A stretch of 55,806 bases of DNA from assembly GCA_903842455.1 (NCBI GenBank), contig CAIMLX010000140.1, forward strand, positions 1-55,806. The letters run 5' to 3'. Positions within the stretch are counted from its first letter, which is position 1. Each line of letters opens with the position of its first letter. The position numbers were made by a program, and so were the translations under genes. The notes beneath the pieces are model-generated. The model saw only the letters and a program-made list of their open reading frames with translations, searched no databases and was not told the origin of the DNA. Below, one piece after another: positions 20,981-26,818 of this stretch. Source of the DNA: an uncultured Hyphomicrobiales bacterium (lineage in GTDB: Bacteria; Pseudomonadota; Alphaproteobacteria; Rhizobiales; Devosiaceae).

Positions 20981-22386
20981 ATGAAGTCGAATCGGTTCCT
21001 GATGGCGGTCCCCTTCCTCTTGGGCACGACTGCCTTGGTCTACGGTGCCGACCCGGCTCAGACGATCTACCCCGTCGATGACGCCCACGGCTTCTTTTCG
21101 CTGTCCGGTACCGTCGGCGGCGTGGTGATGGACCTGCCGGATGGCGGCGGCCTGTTCCTCGGCGAAGGCGCCAACGACGCCAATGACCTGTTGTTCGGCG
21201 GTACCGCCGGGGTCAGCGCGGCGATCGGCACCGGCCCGGTGCTCGGCGGCCTGCAGGGCTTCATCGGCCTCAACCTGTTCGGCACCTACGCCTATGCCGA
21301 CGTCAACAAGACCAGCGCCTTCACCGGCCCGGGCGTGGTCGTCATGCAGGGCGGCACGGGGCCGTTCTCGTCCTTGATCACGATCGCGACCAGCAGCGGC
21401 GCCACGAGCGCTTTCGCCGACATCACCTCGACGCACACCAATCCCGATGGGGGTGGCGAAGCGGTGGTCGTGGAGGCTGTCACGAACCCCGGTCCCGGGG
21501 CAGAGGACGCGCCCTATACGTCAAACGCCGTGGTGGGCAACAGCTTCCAGTGGGGTGGTGGCCAGACACGGGTTGACGGAGCCGGTGGCAGCGCCACAGC
21601 CTATGCTGCGCTTGCCGACGAAAACGGCGGCGTGTTCATCGCCGCTGGCAATCTCGATGGCCTCAACCTGACACAGAGCACCGCACCGAAGCGCTTTACC
21701 TCGGCGGCGACGTAACCTTCGGGGTGTCCGGGCAGAACGGCACGACCACCCTGCAGGGCTATGTCGGCCCCAGCTATCGCTATCTGGCGCAACGCAACAC
21801 GACGACGTCCAACCTGGTCGTCGATGTGCCGGAGTACGCTGGCGTAGCGGAGTTCCCGCTGCTGACCATCAGCGGCACCGACACCTTCTCGTCGCACTAC
21901 ATGGGCGGCATCGCAGGCCTCATGGCAACCATCCCGACCAGCGCCACCACGGCGCTGACCATTGGTGTCGAGGGCGGCGCCTACTACACCATGGCCTCGC
22001 TCAGCAGCGACGGCGTCTACACCGTCTCGGGCGGCGATCTCGATGTGGGGGGCGGTGTAATCAACCCCCCGCCTGCACCGGGAGCGGTCGCCCCGATCTC
22101 CATCGAGTATGACGGCGTTCAGTACGAGGCGGAGACGATCGCCTTCGCCGCGCGCGGAACGGCGGCCTACACGATGGCGATCGCCCAGCACGCCCAGCTC
22201 ACCTTCTCCGGCTCGGTCGACTACCTGTCGGCCGTCGCCCAGACCGGCGTCAACGCCAGCATCGTTGGTTACGACGGCGACGACGATGGCAGCGTCACCT
22301 ACCAGTCGGGTGGCGACAACGAGCGCATCTCGTGGGGCCACATGGTCAACCTGAGCGGCTCCGTCTCGCTGACGGGCCAGTTCTGA
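20981..22386 (+). pseudogene. outer-membrane beta-barrel protein gene with a frameshift
   Basis: The first frame (20981-21715) begins with a signal peptide (MKSNRFLMAVPFLLGTTALVYGA) and a Gly-rich barrel. It loses sense near 21660-21690 and stops at 21715. The -1 frame immediately continues in the same style (TEALYLGGDVTFGVSGQNG, then LQGYVGPSYRYLAQRNTTT) to 22386. The end, VNLSGSVSLTGQF, has the terminal aromatic residue needed for barrel assembly. A one-base deletion near 21670 explains this: an intact gene would encode about 468 residues. It may be a true mutation, a sequencing error or a frameshift site. Confidence 0.75.
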
Positions 22387-22410
22387 TCCACCATTCCTGA
22401 ATTGAACAAG

Positions 22411-22437
22411 GGCGCGTCCACCGGGCGCGCCTTTTTC
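22411..22437 (+). terminator. Rho-independent terminator of the outer-membrane gene
   Basis: GGCGCG, loop TCCACCGGG, CGCGCC, followed by TTTTT, starting 24 nt after the stop of the frameshifted barrel gene. It is the cleanest intrinsic terminator in the window and shows that the gene was, or is, transcribed as a single unit. Confidence 0.85.
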
Positions 22438-22462
22438 TCGCTAGCCCTGTCCCGAAACAGCA

Positions 22463-22490
22463 GCGGCGCGCACCCGAGGATGCGCGCCGC
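22463..22490 (-). terminator. hairpin downstream of the curlin-like gene
   Basis: GCGGCGCGCA and TGCGCGCCGC form a perfect 10-bp stem with an 8-nt loop. It lies 27 nt past the stop of the leftward curlin-like gene. On that strand it is followed by CTGCTGTTTCG, a weak T tail. It is probably the terminator of that gene, back to back with the terminator at 22411. Confidence 0.65.
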
Positions 22491-22517
22491 CTGACCGTCT
22501 GCCGCGGTGTATGGGGC

Positions 22518-23630
22518 TTACCAGTTGCTCTGCGTGATCGTGGCGCTGTTGCCGTTGCCGACCTGGCCCACCGCAGCCCAGTTGCTGCTGTTCGACTGCG
22601 CGACGATCGAGTCGTTGCCATTGCCGAACTGGTTGACCGAAGCGGCGTTGTTGGTGCCGTTCTGGTTGACGCCGGAGCGGTTGAACGTGCCGACCTGTAG
22701 GGTATCGGCCGTGTTGTTCACGCCGACCTGATCGGTCCGCGAGCGGTTGACGGCACCATACTGCGCGGTGTTGGCCTCGTTGTTGAAGCCAACCTGATCG
22801 GTCTGCGAGCCGTTCAGCAGGCCAACCTGGGTCGTGGTCGCATCGTGGCCGACACCGATCTGCGAGGTCAGCGAGCCGTTGAACACGCCGGCCTGGTTGG
22901 TATCGGACTCGTTGAAGGCTCCGTCCTGGAGGGTGGCAGAGGCGTTCAGCACCCCAACCTGCGTAGTACCGGCGCGGTTAAAGTCGCCGCCCTGCAGGGT
23001 GATCTGGCCGTTGAGCACGCCAAGCTGGAATGTCTCGGACCGGTTGCTCTCGCCGAACTGGCCAGTAACCGAACCGTTCAGGAAGCCGAGCTGGACGGTG
23101 TCCTGCGAGTTGGCGCCGACCTGGAACACAGCGTTGCCGTTGGCGAAGCCAACCTGAAGCGTGCCCGAATAGTTGCCTGGGCCGCCGCCGCCGCGCTGGT
23201 AGGTGTACGAGAAATTGTTGTCTCCGAGCTGGACCGTATACGCTGTGTTGGAGTGAACATCCAACGGGATCGGGACAGACGGGAAGCAACCCAGGAACGG
23301 GATGCACCCCCCCGGAATGACGATGCCGAAGCCAGCCGAAGTTTCCTGGTCGGTGATCTGGGTGTTGTTGTTGCCAAACTGTACGCCACTGGCGGTGTTC
23401 AGGCTCCAGTAGTTGGCGCGCTGGCGGATCTGCAGGTTGTTGTTGTTGCCGACCGACACGCCGGCGCCGACGTTGCCCGACGTGTCCGCACCCAACAGCG
23501 GCGGAGCGTCGAGCTGGTTGAGCGGTCCGTTATTGTTGTTGCCGAATTGCCCGATGACGCCGACGTTGAACGCCTGAGCGGGAGAGGCCACGAATGCCAG
23601 CGCGGTGCCGGCGAGCAGAAGCGTACGCAT
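22518..23630 (-). CDS. curlin-like repeat protein, candidate functional amyloid
   Basis: A 370-aa secreted protein. Residues 1-20 are a signal peptide (FVASPAQA before FNVG). Residues 159-370 contain 20 glutamines spaced 11 residues apart (positions 159, 170, 180, then every 11 to 367; only one step is 10), in a QxGxxN pattern such as QLGFLNGSVTG. Alternate units differ (LNG against NR/NE types), giving a 22-residue strand-turn-strand period like that of curlin CsgA/CsgB. A less regular Asn/Gln-rich part (residues 21-158) has two Cys. The RBS GGAGG lies just upstream of ATG 23630. No csgEFG genes are nearby. Confidence 0.8.
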   Translation of the reverse strand: MRTLLLAGTALAFVASPAQAFNVGVIGQFGNNNNGPLNQLDAPPLLGADTSGNVGAGVSVGNNNNLQIRQRANYWSLNTASGVQFGNNNTQITDQETSAGFGIVIPGGCIPFLGCFPSVPIPLDVHSNTAYTVQLGDNNFSYTYQRGGGGPGNYSGTLQVGFANGNAVFQVGANSQDTVQLGFLNGSVTGQFGESNRSETFQLGVLNGQITLQGGDFNRAGTTQVGVLNASATLQDGAFNESDTNQAGVFNGSLTSQIGVGHDATTTQVGLLNGSQTDQVGFNNEANTAQYGAVNRSRTDQVGVNNTADTLQVGTFNRSGVNQNGTNNAASVNQFGNGNDSIVAQSNSSNWAAVGQVGNGNSATITQSNW

Positions 23631-24306
23631 CTAATTCCTCCAAGAGCAAAAGAATAAACCTCAGCTCCGGAAGCAATCCGGACGGCTGTTGAAAACATCC
23701 AAGCTCAAGTGGAAATGAAAGGCCAAACGTCTATCGTATTCAGACTCGGCTATAGAACATAATTAACGGGACACATTAACCAAAGAGCGCTGCCGGTTGA
23801 GTGAGACTCCAGTACATCCGTACTGGTGGTCCTCACACATCCGGCAGAACGGGGTACGATTGATGCCGGTGTCGGGATGTCTGTCACGCGGTTGCGGCCC
23901 CGGTCACACACTGCAACCGGCCACAACCTGGGCAACGGCGCTCGCCTCGGTAGCTCAGGTCCCAAAAATGCGTTGAATAACAGCGTCTTGCGCTCAAGCG
24001 ATCCACTGCACGAGGGGCGTTGCACCACTTCTGCCAAAGGCAAAGTGCTTGCCGCGCCGGCGGCTGAACCGCGCGGAGACCGCTCAGCGGTAACCATCAT
24101 TATGGTATATACATTGCTAACGTCCACGCATCGGGATTATCTGTCCGCCATCGCGCAGGCAGGACGGGCAAGTCCACCGGCGCGAGTTGAAGTCCGGCGT
24201 TCCTGTGGAGGGGCCCGCCGGACGGGAGTGCAACAAATCGTGGCCGGTGCGTATCGCCGGGCTACGCGCGTGCCGTATGCGGCGGGTGGCGCGCGTCAGT
24301 GAGTGA
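23631..24306. other. 676-bp intergenic region between curlin-like and LuxR genes
   Basis: No supportable gene. The left 150 bp is AT-rich and should hold the curlin-like promoter. A direct repeat ATTAAC-N7-ATTAAC lies at 23762-23780. A second AT-rich patch near 24100-24120 (TATGGTATATACATTG) is a possible promoter for the LuxR gene. The region is long enough for a complex regulatory zone or a small RNA, as between the curli operons of enterobacteria, but I see no defined RNA. Confidence 0.45.
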
Positions 24307-25452
24307 GTGCTGACGATGGGATATTCGCAGAACAGCCTGACCAGCTGCATCTATGACATGGCGCTGGGGCGCTCGAGCTGGGACAGCATCCTCGACATCC
24401 TGGCGGCGACCTTTCCAGGGTGCCTGATCACCGTGTCGGGCGACAACCTTGCCACCGGCGACAATCTCGCCTTCGCGCAGCGCGGTCTCGTGCCCGCCGC
24501 CGCCGCCAGCTACCTGTCGACCTACTCAAGCCTCAACCCAACCGTGAGCCTGGGAGCCGACCTGGCGCTCTATCAGGTTTTCCACGACGAAGCGCTGATC
24601 GACCGCGACGCGGCCGCGCAGGGCCGGTTCCACCGCGAGTGGCTGAGCCGCCAAGGGGATTTCAGCGCGTCGACCGGCGTGGTGGTGCTGCGCGAAGGGT
24701 CGCGGCAGCTGGCCATCCAGATCTACTACCCGCAATTGCGGCAGGCCGAACTCCGGCCCCGGGCCTCAGCCGTGCTGGGGGATGCCGCACAGCATTTCGG
24801 CCGTGCCTTCGAGATCGCCAGCCGCACCCGCTTTGCCGATGGCCGCGGCTACCTCGAAGGCGTGGTCGCCGACCTGCCGTTCACCGTCTTCTTCGTCGAT
24901 GGCGACCTGCGCATCCACTATGCGAACTACCAGGCCGAGACCCTGCGCCGCCAGCATGTCGGTCCATTCTCCAGCGCTGACGGTGTGTTGCGCGCCACCG
25001 ACGAGAGCGCCGACGCCCAGTTGCGCCAACTGGTCGCCAAGGTGATCTCGGCCAAGCGCACGCCCACTTCGGTGCTGCAGCTCAGCCGCCCCGACAGCGA
25101 CGAGCGGCATTTCGCCATCGCCCGGCTCGCCAGCCGCGCCGGGCAGAACTACCAGTTGCACGACGCCGTGCTCGATACCGGGCCGCTGGTGATGCTGGTG
25201 GTGCATGGCAGTCTCGAGATGAGCTCGCTGCCGACCGACCTCCTCTGGCGCGCCTTCTCCCTCACCGACTCCGAGGCCCGCCTCGCCGAAGCCCTGCTCA
25301 ACGGCGCCACGCTCGCCGATTTCGCGAAGGAGCGCGAAGTCTCCAAGCAGACCCTGCGCAACCAGCTCGTCGGCGTCATGCGCAAGACCGGCACCCGCCG
25401 CCAGTCCGAACTGGTCTCGCTGCTGACCCGGCTGGCCCTGACCTGCCTGTAG
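24307..25452 (+). CDS. LuxR-type helix-turn-helix transcriptional regulator
   Basis: A 381-aa protein. The C-terminal 65 residues are a LuxR/FixJ-type DNA-binding domain (FSLTDSEARLAEALLNG, then LADFAKEREVSKQTLRNQL, then MRKTGTRRQSELVSLL). Residues about 190-300 look PAS-like (VADLPFTVFFVDGDLRIHYAN). It starts at GTG 24307 or ATG 24316. It is transcribed divergently from the curlin-like gene. In enterobacteria the LuxR-family protein CsgD activates curlin genes, so a similar link is plausible here but unproven. It lacks a receiver domain. Confidence 0.85.
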   Translation: MLTMGYSQNSLTSCIYDMALGRSSWDSILDILAATFPGCLITVSGDNLATGDNLAFAQRGLVPAAAASYLSTYSSLNPTVSLGADLALYQVFHDEALIDRDAAAQGRFHREWLSRQGDFSASTGVVVLREGSRQLAIQIYYPQLRQAELRPRASAVLGDAAQHFGRAFEIASRTRFADGRGYLEGVVADLPFTVFFVDGDLRIHYANYQAETLRRQHVGPFSSADGVLRATDESADAQLRQLVAKVISAKRTPTSVLQLSRPDSDERHFAIARLASRAGQNYQLHDAVLDTGPLVMLVVHGSLEMSSLPTDLLWRAFSLTDSEARLAEALLNGATLADFAKEREVSKQTLRNQLVGVMRKTGTRRQSELVSLLTRLALTCL

Positions 25453-25564
25453 GCCCGAAGGCCAGTTTTCTGTAGGCAATGACAAGTGCAGAACAGCTTT
25501 GCGCCGGGCTGCCATTCGACGCACGCATCTTGCCTTTTTCGGCCGGCTGGTGACTGATGCCTGC

Positions 25565-26818
25565 ATGAAAGTTCTGATCCTCGGCGGCGGCGTCATCGGC
25601 ACCACTTCGGCCTATTATCTGGCCCAAGCGGGACATGAGGTGACCGTGCTGGAGCGCCAGCGCGGTGCCGGGCTCGAAACCAGCTTCGCCAATGCCGGTG
25701 AGCTCTCCTACGGCTATGCCTCGCCGTGGGCGGGGCCCGGGATTCCGGCCAAGGCCATCAAGTGGCTGCTGATGACCGACGGGCCGCTGGTGCTGCGCCC
25801 CAAGCTCGACCCGAAGATGTGGATCTGGGGTCTGCAACTGCTGGCCAACTGCACCCACGCCGCTTACGCCCGCAACAAGGGCCGCATGGTCCGCCTCGCC
25901 GATTATTCCGATGCGCAGATGCCGGCCCTGCGCGCGCTGCCCGGCCTGGCCTTCGATGGCCGCGAGCAGGGGACGCTGCAGCTCTTCCGCCAGCAGAAGC
26001 AACTCGACCATGCCGGCGACGACATCGCGGTGCTGAAGCAATATGGCGTGCGCTACGAGGTCCTCGATCCCAAGAGTTGCGTCGCCGCCGAGCCGGGTCT
26101 CGCAACGGCCACGGTGCCCTTCGTCGGCGGCCTGCGCCTGCCCGATGACGACACTGGCGATTGCCAGATGTTCACCGAGGGCATGGCGAAGATCGCGGCG
26201 CAGCAGGGCGTCGCCTTCCACTTCGGCACCACCATTCGCGCCATCGAGAAATCCGGTGGCGCCATTGCCGGCGTCGAAACCGATCGCGGGCGCTTCACTG
26301 CCGATGCCTACGTGCTGGCGCTTGGCAGCTACTCGCCAGGCCTCGCCCGCGATCTCGGCCTCACGCTGCCGATCTATCCGATCAAAGGTTACTCGCTCAC
26401 CGTGCCGATCACCGACGAAACGGTGGCGCCGCGCTCCACCATCATGGACGAGACCTACAAGGTGGCGACGACCCGGCTCGGCGACCGCATCCGCGTCGGC
26501 GGCACGGCCGAAATCGCCGGCTACGACCTTACGCTGCACCAGTCCCGCCGCGGCCCGCTCGATCGCTCGCTGCGCGAACTCTTCCCCACCGCCGGCGACA
26601 CCGCGCGCGCCAGCTACTGGTGCGGCCTCCGTCCGATGACCCCCGATGGCACGCCCATCCTCGGCAAGGCGCTGTCCAACCTCTATCTCAACACCGGCCA
26701 CGGCACGCTGGGCTGGACCATGGCGGCAGGCTCGGGTCGCGTCCTCGCCGACCTCGTTTCCGGCCGTGAGCCGGAGATCGATACCTCCGATCTCGGGCTT
26801 GGCCGCTACTCCGCCTGA
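25565..26818 (+). CDS. dadA: D-amino acid dehydrogenase
   Basis: A 417-aa FAD-dependent oxidoreductase that deaminates D-amino acids to 2-oxo acids and passes electrons to the respiratory chain. The N-terminal dinucleotide fold is MKVLILGGGVIGTTSAYYLA. The DadA-typical segments SFANAGELSYGYASPWAGPG (about residue 38) and the C-terminal NTGHGTLGWTMAAGSGR (about 379) bind FAD. ATG 25565 is chosen over the longer frame from 25499. The 3' end overlaps that of the convergent glycosyltransferase by 13 bp. No alanine racemase is next to it. Confidence 0.93.
   Translation: MKVLILGGGVIGTTSAYYLAQAGHEVTVLERQRGAGLETSFANAGELSYGYASPWAGPGIPAKAIKWLLMTDGPLVLRPKLDPKMWIWGLQLLANCTHAAYARNKGRMVRLADYSDAQMPALRALPGLAFDGREQGTLQLFRQQKQLDHAGDDIAVLKQYGVRYEVLDPKSCVAAEPGLATATVPFVGGLRLPDDDTGDCQMFTEGMAKIAAQQGVAFHFGTTIRAIEKSGGAIAGVETDRGRFTADAYVLALGSYSPGLARDLGLTLPIYPIKGYSLTVPITDETVAPRSTIMDETYKVATTRLGDRIRVGGTAEIAGYDLTLHQSRRGPLDRSLRELFPTAGDTARASYWCGLRPMTPDGTPILGKALSNLYLNTGHGTLGWTMAAGSGRVLADLVSGREPEIDTSDLGLGRYSA

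Follow-up and report, generated by a model that had tools for sequence, protein, structure and literature searches.

A curlin-family gene in a Devosiaceae genome without a CsgG match, and the predicted outer-membrane barrel gene linked to it

Organisation of the curlin locus

The window, i.e. the whole stretch of 55,806 nucleotides that was analysed, comes from an uncultured bacterium of the family Devosiaceae and carries a curlin-like open reading frame between a predicted outer-membrane barrel gene and a gene coding for a PAS/LuxR-type regulator (Table 1). The curlin frame starts with ATG and contains no internal stop over its 370 codons, and the motif GGAGGA, which resembles a ribosome-binding site by eye, lies immediately 5' of the start. 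The two cysteines of the protein (residues 109 and 115) are both located in its low-confidence stretch. The barrel gene and the curlin gene are convergent and do not form an operon. In the window it is split over two frames, and the two pieces together match nearly the full length of the intact genes found in relatives. Either the frame change is real, in which case decay of the module in this genome is possible, or the assembly is at fault. The motif TTAACCAT, which we take to be a CtrA half-site, was seen shortly before the barrel gene in 3 of 7 loci (the window, before position 20981, L050 and L084).

Table 1 Features of the curlin locus, with positions in the window
Feature	Position	Strand	Basis
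Predicted outer-membrane barrel gene, N-terminal part, tail-to-tail with the curlin gene	20981..21715	+	Homologue matches
Same barrel gene, C-terminal part, other frame	21724..22386	+	Homologous match from ~21673 to 22383
Curlin gene (370 aa)	22518..23630, including stop	-	Open reading frame list, profile match, predicted fold
Curlin residues 159-370, about ten 22-residue repeats with a 20-rung glutamine ladder	22521..23156	-	Repeat analysis, fold model
Curlin residues 21-158, imperfect repeats and low-confidence stretch	23157..23570	-	Sequence, fold model
Putative Sec-type signal peptide, residues 1-20, ending in AQA	23571..23630	-	By eye
Conserved curlin-regulator intergenic element, GGTAACCAT then a ATGGTATA-like half (ATAGTATA in L084)	24089..24106	+	Present in 5 of 5 compared: window, L050, L084, L088, L087
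PAS/LuxR-type regulator gene, divergent from the curlin gene	24316..25452	+	Profile matches, homologues

Repeats and predicted fold of the curlin

The curlin repeats of CsgA and CsgB are about 22 residues long and carry ladders of glutamine and asparagine, which build an amyloid cross-beta solenoid. The original prediction had described a ladder of glutamines at 11-residue steps in this protein, and it was recovered as such: 20 glutamines run from residue 159 to residue 367, the single step of 10 falling between residues 170 and 180, and the xGxxN said to follow them fits 16 of the 20 as QxGxxN. Over residues 147-370, the best 11-residue phase holds 18 glutamines, against a maximum of 9 in 20,000 shuffles. 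The alternation that would make 22 the true period is visible in the identities at different lags (0.362 at 11 residues, 0.426 at 22, 0.319 at 33 and 0.383 at 44), but its statistical support is modest, as 198 of 5000 shuffles reach the observed difference in a parity test of 22 over 11. The 22-residue units are present, but the 20 glutamines make about ten of them and not about nine as first counted; further imperfect repeats occupy residues 21-158. With 370 aa the protein is longer than CsgA, as had been noted, but such a length is not new, since curlin homologues with up to 22 repeat units are described in the part of a 2012 survey available to us (PMC3521004). Two giant curlin-repeat frames were also observed among the loci compared, at positions 10132-14073 of L055 (1313 aa, 49 motif counts) and 5003-8884 of L058 (1293 aa, 48 motif counts), the former adjoining the CsgG match of genome G124.

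The Pfam profile Curlin_rpt (PF07012) matches the protein in three stretches (E 1.3e-10), and its score of 41.5 bits, above the curated cut-off of 20.7, bears out the curlin-like identity proposed from the repeats. The scores against the NCBIfam equivalogs are both below cut-off (39.9 of 160 bits for CsgA, 66.3 of 165 bits for CsgB), so the protein is a curlin, yet the NCBIfam standard does not make it an orthologue of the CsgA or CsgB of E. coli. Its best sequence match in the PDB is 8c50_A from Pontibacter (E 4.1e-19). AlphaFold2, run with a three-row alignment, predicted a stacked beta-solenoid of 28 short strands, mostly of 7-9 residues each, with block means of pLDDT between 85 and 93 over residues 221-370 and an overall value of 71.3 (44.1-71.3 among the five models). 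In a Foldseek search with this model the top match, and the sole one with an E-value below 0.001, was 8c50_A, the CsgA of Pontibacter korlensis (E 1.4e-6), followed by the fibril of E. coli CsgA, 8enq_A (E 8.2e-3, rmsd 2.6, TM 0.83 by target length). The predicted fold therefore agrees with the two-sheet beta-solenoid that had been anticipated, its two best matches being solved CsgA structures, and neither of the two computational outcomes named as contrary to that prediction, the lack of a curlin profile match or a fold of another kind, was observed. By profile and predicted fold, the open reading frame is a curlin-family subunit, which would polymerise as an amyloid outside the cell. It resembles CsgA and CsgB (PF07012; 8enq from E. 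coli, 8c50 from P. korlensis) in its 22-residue Q/G/N repeats, predicted beta-solenoid and putative signal peptide, and differs from them in its 370 aa, its scores below the equivalog cut-offs, its two cysteines and a genome without a CsgG match.

Curlins without CsgG in the genome, the family and the order

Curlins are generally taken to require CsgG. The genome to which the window belongs (4.56 Mb in 280 contigs, with an estimated completeness of 100%) contains one curlin locus; its three Curlin_rpt stretches all belong to the same gene, which rules out a second curlin gene. No match to CsgG was found in the whole genome at E<=10, and the same search was positive for E. coli, Caulobacter and four others among 14 control genomes. 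CsgF and CsgE likewise gave zero matches at E<=10 over the whole genome, and no CsgH, a periplasmic inhibitor, was found above the cut-off (best score 11.3 bits, cut-off 35). What had been stated for the vicinity of the curlin, that no csgE, csgF or csgG is present, thus extends to the whole genome as searched, and a location of these genes elsewhere in it is ruled out at E<=10. The secretion route and the partner of the protein had been left open; the CsgG route was indeed not found, but the flanking barrel and regulator genes had been overlooked.

Within the Devosiaceae, Curlin_rpt matches are present in 88 of 136 genomes, a lower bound because five genomes carrying the barrel-curlin module described below (G037, G038, G065, G086 and G099) were not counted by the Pfam genome scan despite a curlin-like gene in the module. 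CsgG-family matches, counted as any PF03783 match at E<=0.01 in the family and at E<=0.001 in the order, are present in 12 of the 136 genomes, six of them strong and six weaker. The 88 curlin-positive genomes divide into 78 without a CsgG-family match and 10 with one (strong in 6), and 68 genomes of the family have curlins and neither CsgG nor the barrel. For the order, 397 genomes were sampled by an even draw: curlin repeats were found in 78 and CsgG matches in 40, and 48 of the 78 curlin-positive genomes are without a CsgG-family match. Family f44 speaks against a general rule, as all 14 of its curlin-positive genomes have CsgG. At three loci from genomes of genus g5 (L041, L043 and L057), a curlin and a further curlin-like gene were seen, with a CsgH-like gene, beside flagellar genes; no CsgG and no barrel match was found in these genomes, and the CsgH was confirmed in L041 only.

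Linkage and distribution of the barrel gene

Homologues of the barrel were found in 21 of the 136 Devosiaceae genomes, window included, and the neighbourhoods of all 20 others were examined together with that of the window. Genes were called by script and read by eye, so that starts are approximate, and for long loci the middle part was considered. In 17 of the 21 genomes the barrel gene stands tail-to-tail with a curlin gene or with a block of CsgH then curlin, at a distance of 8-673 bp (median 74). These genomes are G000, G093 (Hyphomicrobiales bacterium PMG_193), G091, G100 (Devosia sp. ZB163), G099 (Devosia sp. RYN_484), G002 (Cucumibacter marinus DSM 18995), G068, G067, G086, G089, G037, G065, G013, G117, G116, G130 and G038. 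At least one neighbouring gene passed a shuffle test for the glutamine ladder (at most 10 of 5000 shuffles) in every one of the 17 modules, which is a check and not an independent discovery because a Q-G-N motif had already served to select these neighbours. When ten of these neighbours were searched with Curlin_rpt, four were over the cut-off (L087, L099, L088 and L119), three below it (L083, L090 and L092), and three had no match (L085, L089 and one L098 gene). In G100, one candidate curlin of two (L051b) lacks a ladder at +11 and matches no Pfam or NCBIfam family. CsgH exceeds its NCBIfam cut-off in five of the modules (G100, G117, G116, G130 and G038). Fourteen of the 17 module genomes are without a CsgG-family match; G091 and G093 combine the module with a strong CsgG on another contig, and G038 has a weak CsgG-family match. 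As in the window, the barrel gene of G013 (L092, 8661-9990) is broken, and the curlin-like frame next to it is open.

The four unlinked barrels (G095, G092, G088 and G103) form one clade with 100/100 support, placed inside the linked ones in a 20-row tree which omits the broken barrels of the window and G013 and in which L119 and L099 have long branches. No Curlin_rpt match was found in the genomes of these four. At their loci (L091, L095, L096 and L097), no curlin was seen nearby, and a response-regulator gene is close to the barrel. This curlin-less clade is possibly a repurposed paralogue. An older linkage of barrel and curlin which was lost once would be the simplest reading of the tree, although not a proven one because the root was placed at the midpoint.

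In the order sample, 14 of 397 genomes had a barrel match at E<=1e-6. A broad distribution in the order was nevertheless rejected, since 3 of these genomes are members of the family (window included), one is G260, the strong match outside it, and the remaining 10 have short, partial matches (E 5e-11 to 4e-7). Around five of these 10, those of G298 (a 3.4 kb contig), G171, G373, G240 and G208, gene calling gave no curlin in the stretches covered. In G260, which belongs to family f13, a curlin (7 Pfam stretches, 54.4 bits) lies about 300-370 bp from the start of a distant barrel (E 2.9e-47), and behind the curlin is a CsgH (96.1 bits). The orientation of barrel and curlin is divergent in this genome, not convergent. 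A plasmid-borne module was also considered and rejected, since neither positions 21000-25600 of the window (megablast) nor the L084 barrel (tblastn) had a match among 72,556 plasmid records, a set that may exclude records very near the window's genome. The same holds for a phage family, the three proteins given having no PHROGs match at E<=0.1.

Predicted structure of the barrel

None of five barrel sequences or pieces matched a Pfam or NCBIfam family over its cut-off. The homologue from G091 (L084) was modelled from a 15-row alignment (A5) with a pLDDT of 78.4. The model has about ten long strands, joined by short turns and long loops in alternation; between strands 3 and 4, short strands make up an insert of about 110 residues. 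Judging by the alternation of strands, this beta-domain would face the outside if both termini are periplasmic. No helix is present in the secondary structure of the model, in which residues 1-25 have low confidence. The best Foldseek E-values were those of the autotransporter EstA (3.2e-6) and of TodX/FadL channels, but since they come with a TM of 0.25 or less the model does not settle the class of the barrel. When ranked by target coverage, OpcA (0.61) and a Legionella porin (0.60) came first and Pla/OmpT reached about 0.5 among the best 50 of 635 matches, and neither FapF nor CsgG was among these 50. A likeness of the outer domain to the archaeal bundling protein AbpX (A5 positions 117-156) was discarded as too weak (E 0.0073 over 40 residues).

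In Pseudomonas, FapF serves FapC. The arrangement found here is alike in that an amyloid subunit is paired with an outer-membrane beta-barrel. FapF is described as a trimer of 12-strand barrels, and an amyloid subunit can exit through such a barrel, according to the part of that study available to us (PMC5557850). The present case differs in having about ten predicted strands instead of 12 and a curlin instead of FapC; no relation between the two barrels was detected, and the helical plug and coiled coil of FapF are not seen in the model. Ten strands would give a narrow channel.

The regulator and the intergenic element

The regulator has 378 aa, with a PAS-like middle region (Pfam PAS_4, below cut-off). 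Its DNA-binding domain is weakly supported, as Pfam GerE was found in 1 of 4 members (E 0.13) and the LuxR-type models of NCBIfam match with E 6e-4 and weaker, below their cut-offs. Its frame is open, and six homologues from the same genus share 63-80% identity with it. Homologues are present in 12 of the 17 modules; the five without (G068, G067, G037, G065 and G013) belong to genus g5, and the contig stretch covered for G065 is only 6.1 kb. Distant homologues (24-25% identity) were seen next to a csg locus of the classic type (L055) and next to one of the more common curlin loci (L040). CsgD is of the LuxR type, and the regulator resembles it in a suggested LuxR-type C-terminus and in the position of its gene beside a curlin; the PAS-like middle region sets it apart, and the family is too large for membership to be diagnosed. 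CsgD is described as the activator of curli in the part of the 2012 survey available (PMC3521004). The conserved element between curlin and regulator lies 151 to 281 bp before the start of the regulator in the loci that have it, and a search ahead of the regulators of L051, L083, L053, L093 and L094 gave no exact GGTAACC.

Discussion

Taken together, the open reading frame probably encodes an amyloid subunit of the curlin family that belongs to a curli module independent of CsgG, in which the barrel would be its partner at the cell surface. The divergent regulator would switch the locus on, and the curlin, given its putative signal peptide, would cross the inner membrane by Sec. It would be kept unfolded in the periplasm, helped by CsgH where the module of relatives encodes it, and would leave by a route other than CsgG, which was not found. 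Outside the cell it would adopt the predicted fold, a stacked beta-solenoid of 22-residue units, and could then polymerise, while the barrel, as outer-membrane partner, may dock the fibre or nucleate it. For the barrel, such a role of anchor or nucleator has only slightly less than an even chance, and what is left after this and export goes to some other role. The preference for an anchor or nucleator over an exporter comes from the 68 genomes of the family that have curlins but neither CsgG nor the barrel, from the small size of the barrel and from its large outer domain. These 68 genomes also indicate that the barrel is dispensable for CsgG-less curlins in general.

That the barrel is a dedicated exporter, replacing CsgG for the linked curlin as FapF does for FapC, seems rather unlikely to us. 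It would fit the 14 of 17 module genomes without a CsgG-family match; the barrel is the sole recognised outer-membrane gene of the module; EstA, the best Foldseek match by E-value, is an autotransporter, and FapF is a precedent for the passage of an amyloid subunit through a 12-strand barrel in the part of the study available (PMC5557850). However, the model has about ten long strands and no FapF among its best 50 of 635 Foldseek matches, and it contains no helix that could form a FapF-like plug or coiled coil, residues 1-25 being of low confidence. The 68 genomes of the family that manage without the barrel, and the two module genomes that retain a strong CsgG, also argue against export. If the curlins of the order are secreted, the 48 of 78 curlin-positive genomes without a CsgG-family match make a common route likely, and the curlin of the window could use this general outer-membrane route while the barrel is unrelated to assembly, for instance as a co-regulated receptor or sensor. 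We consider this improbable: one clade of barrels does adjoin response-regulator genes and not curlins, but an unrelated barrel would hardly account for the tail-to-tail arrangement in 17 of 21 genomes, or for the linked case outside the family.

It is likewise unlikely that the locus of the window is a decaying relict whose curlin gets to the periplasm at most. The split of the barrel over two frames and the failure to find CsgE, CsgF, CsgG or CsgH in this genome speak for such a state; the break may however be an assembly error, the curlin frame is open over 370 codons and its ladder is regular, and the regulator frame is open and conserved among the homologues of its genus. In the broadest reading, which is tentative and somewhat less than evenly balanced in our judgement, there may be a second, CsgG-independent curli assembly system in the Devosiaceae and in one or more further families of the order. 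It would comprise a curlin, accompanied by CsgH or not, together with a PAS/LuxR-type regulator and an outer-membrane barrel of about ten strands that had no name so far; this barrel would export or nucleate the curlin and contact it through its outer beta-domain.

Orphan curlins as such are already known, being reported in the parts of two surveys available to us (PMC3521004 and PMC10192328). According to the earlier one, from 2012, only curlin subunits are identifiable in many Alphaproteobacteria, csgH accompanies them, and alternative proteins must fill the missing csg roles; CsgH is named, and no outer-membrane protein is, in the part available (PMC3521004). The present curlins are like those of that survey in occurring without other csg genes, and differ in that a barrel family and a regulator are singled out here by conserved linkage. 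In the titles and abstract openings of the matches listed from the open-licence PMC literature, as distinct from subscription papers and preprints, a curlin-linked barrel is not mentioned. The present analysis adds the conserved barrel partner, the regulator and the finding that orphan curlins are concentrated in the Devosiaceae. In the available part of the later survey, 1033 (2%) of 43,279 CsgA-bearing genomes are without CsgG (PMC10192328); against this 2%, the orphan state is the rule in the Devosiaceae (78 of 88) and the majority in the order sample (48 of 78). The barrel gene standing tail-to-tail with the curlin block is a concrete candidate for the missing outer-membrane role, and together with the linked regulator it provides a lead on how such amyloids reach the cell surface or stay on it.
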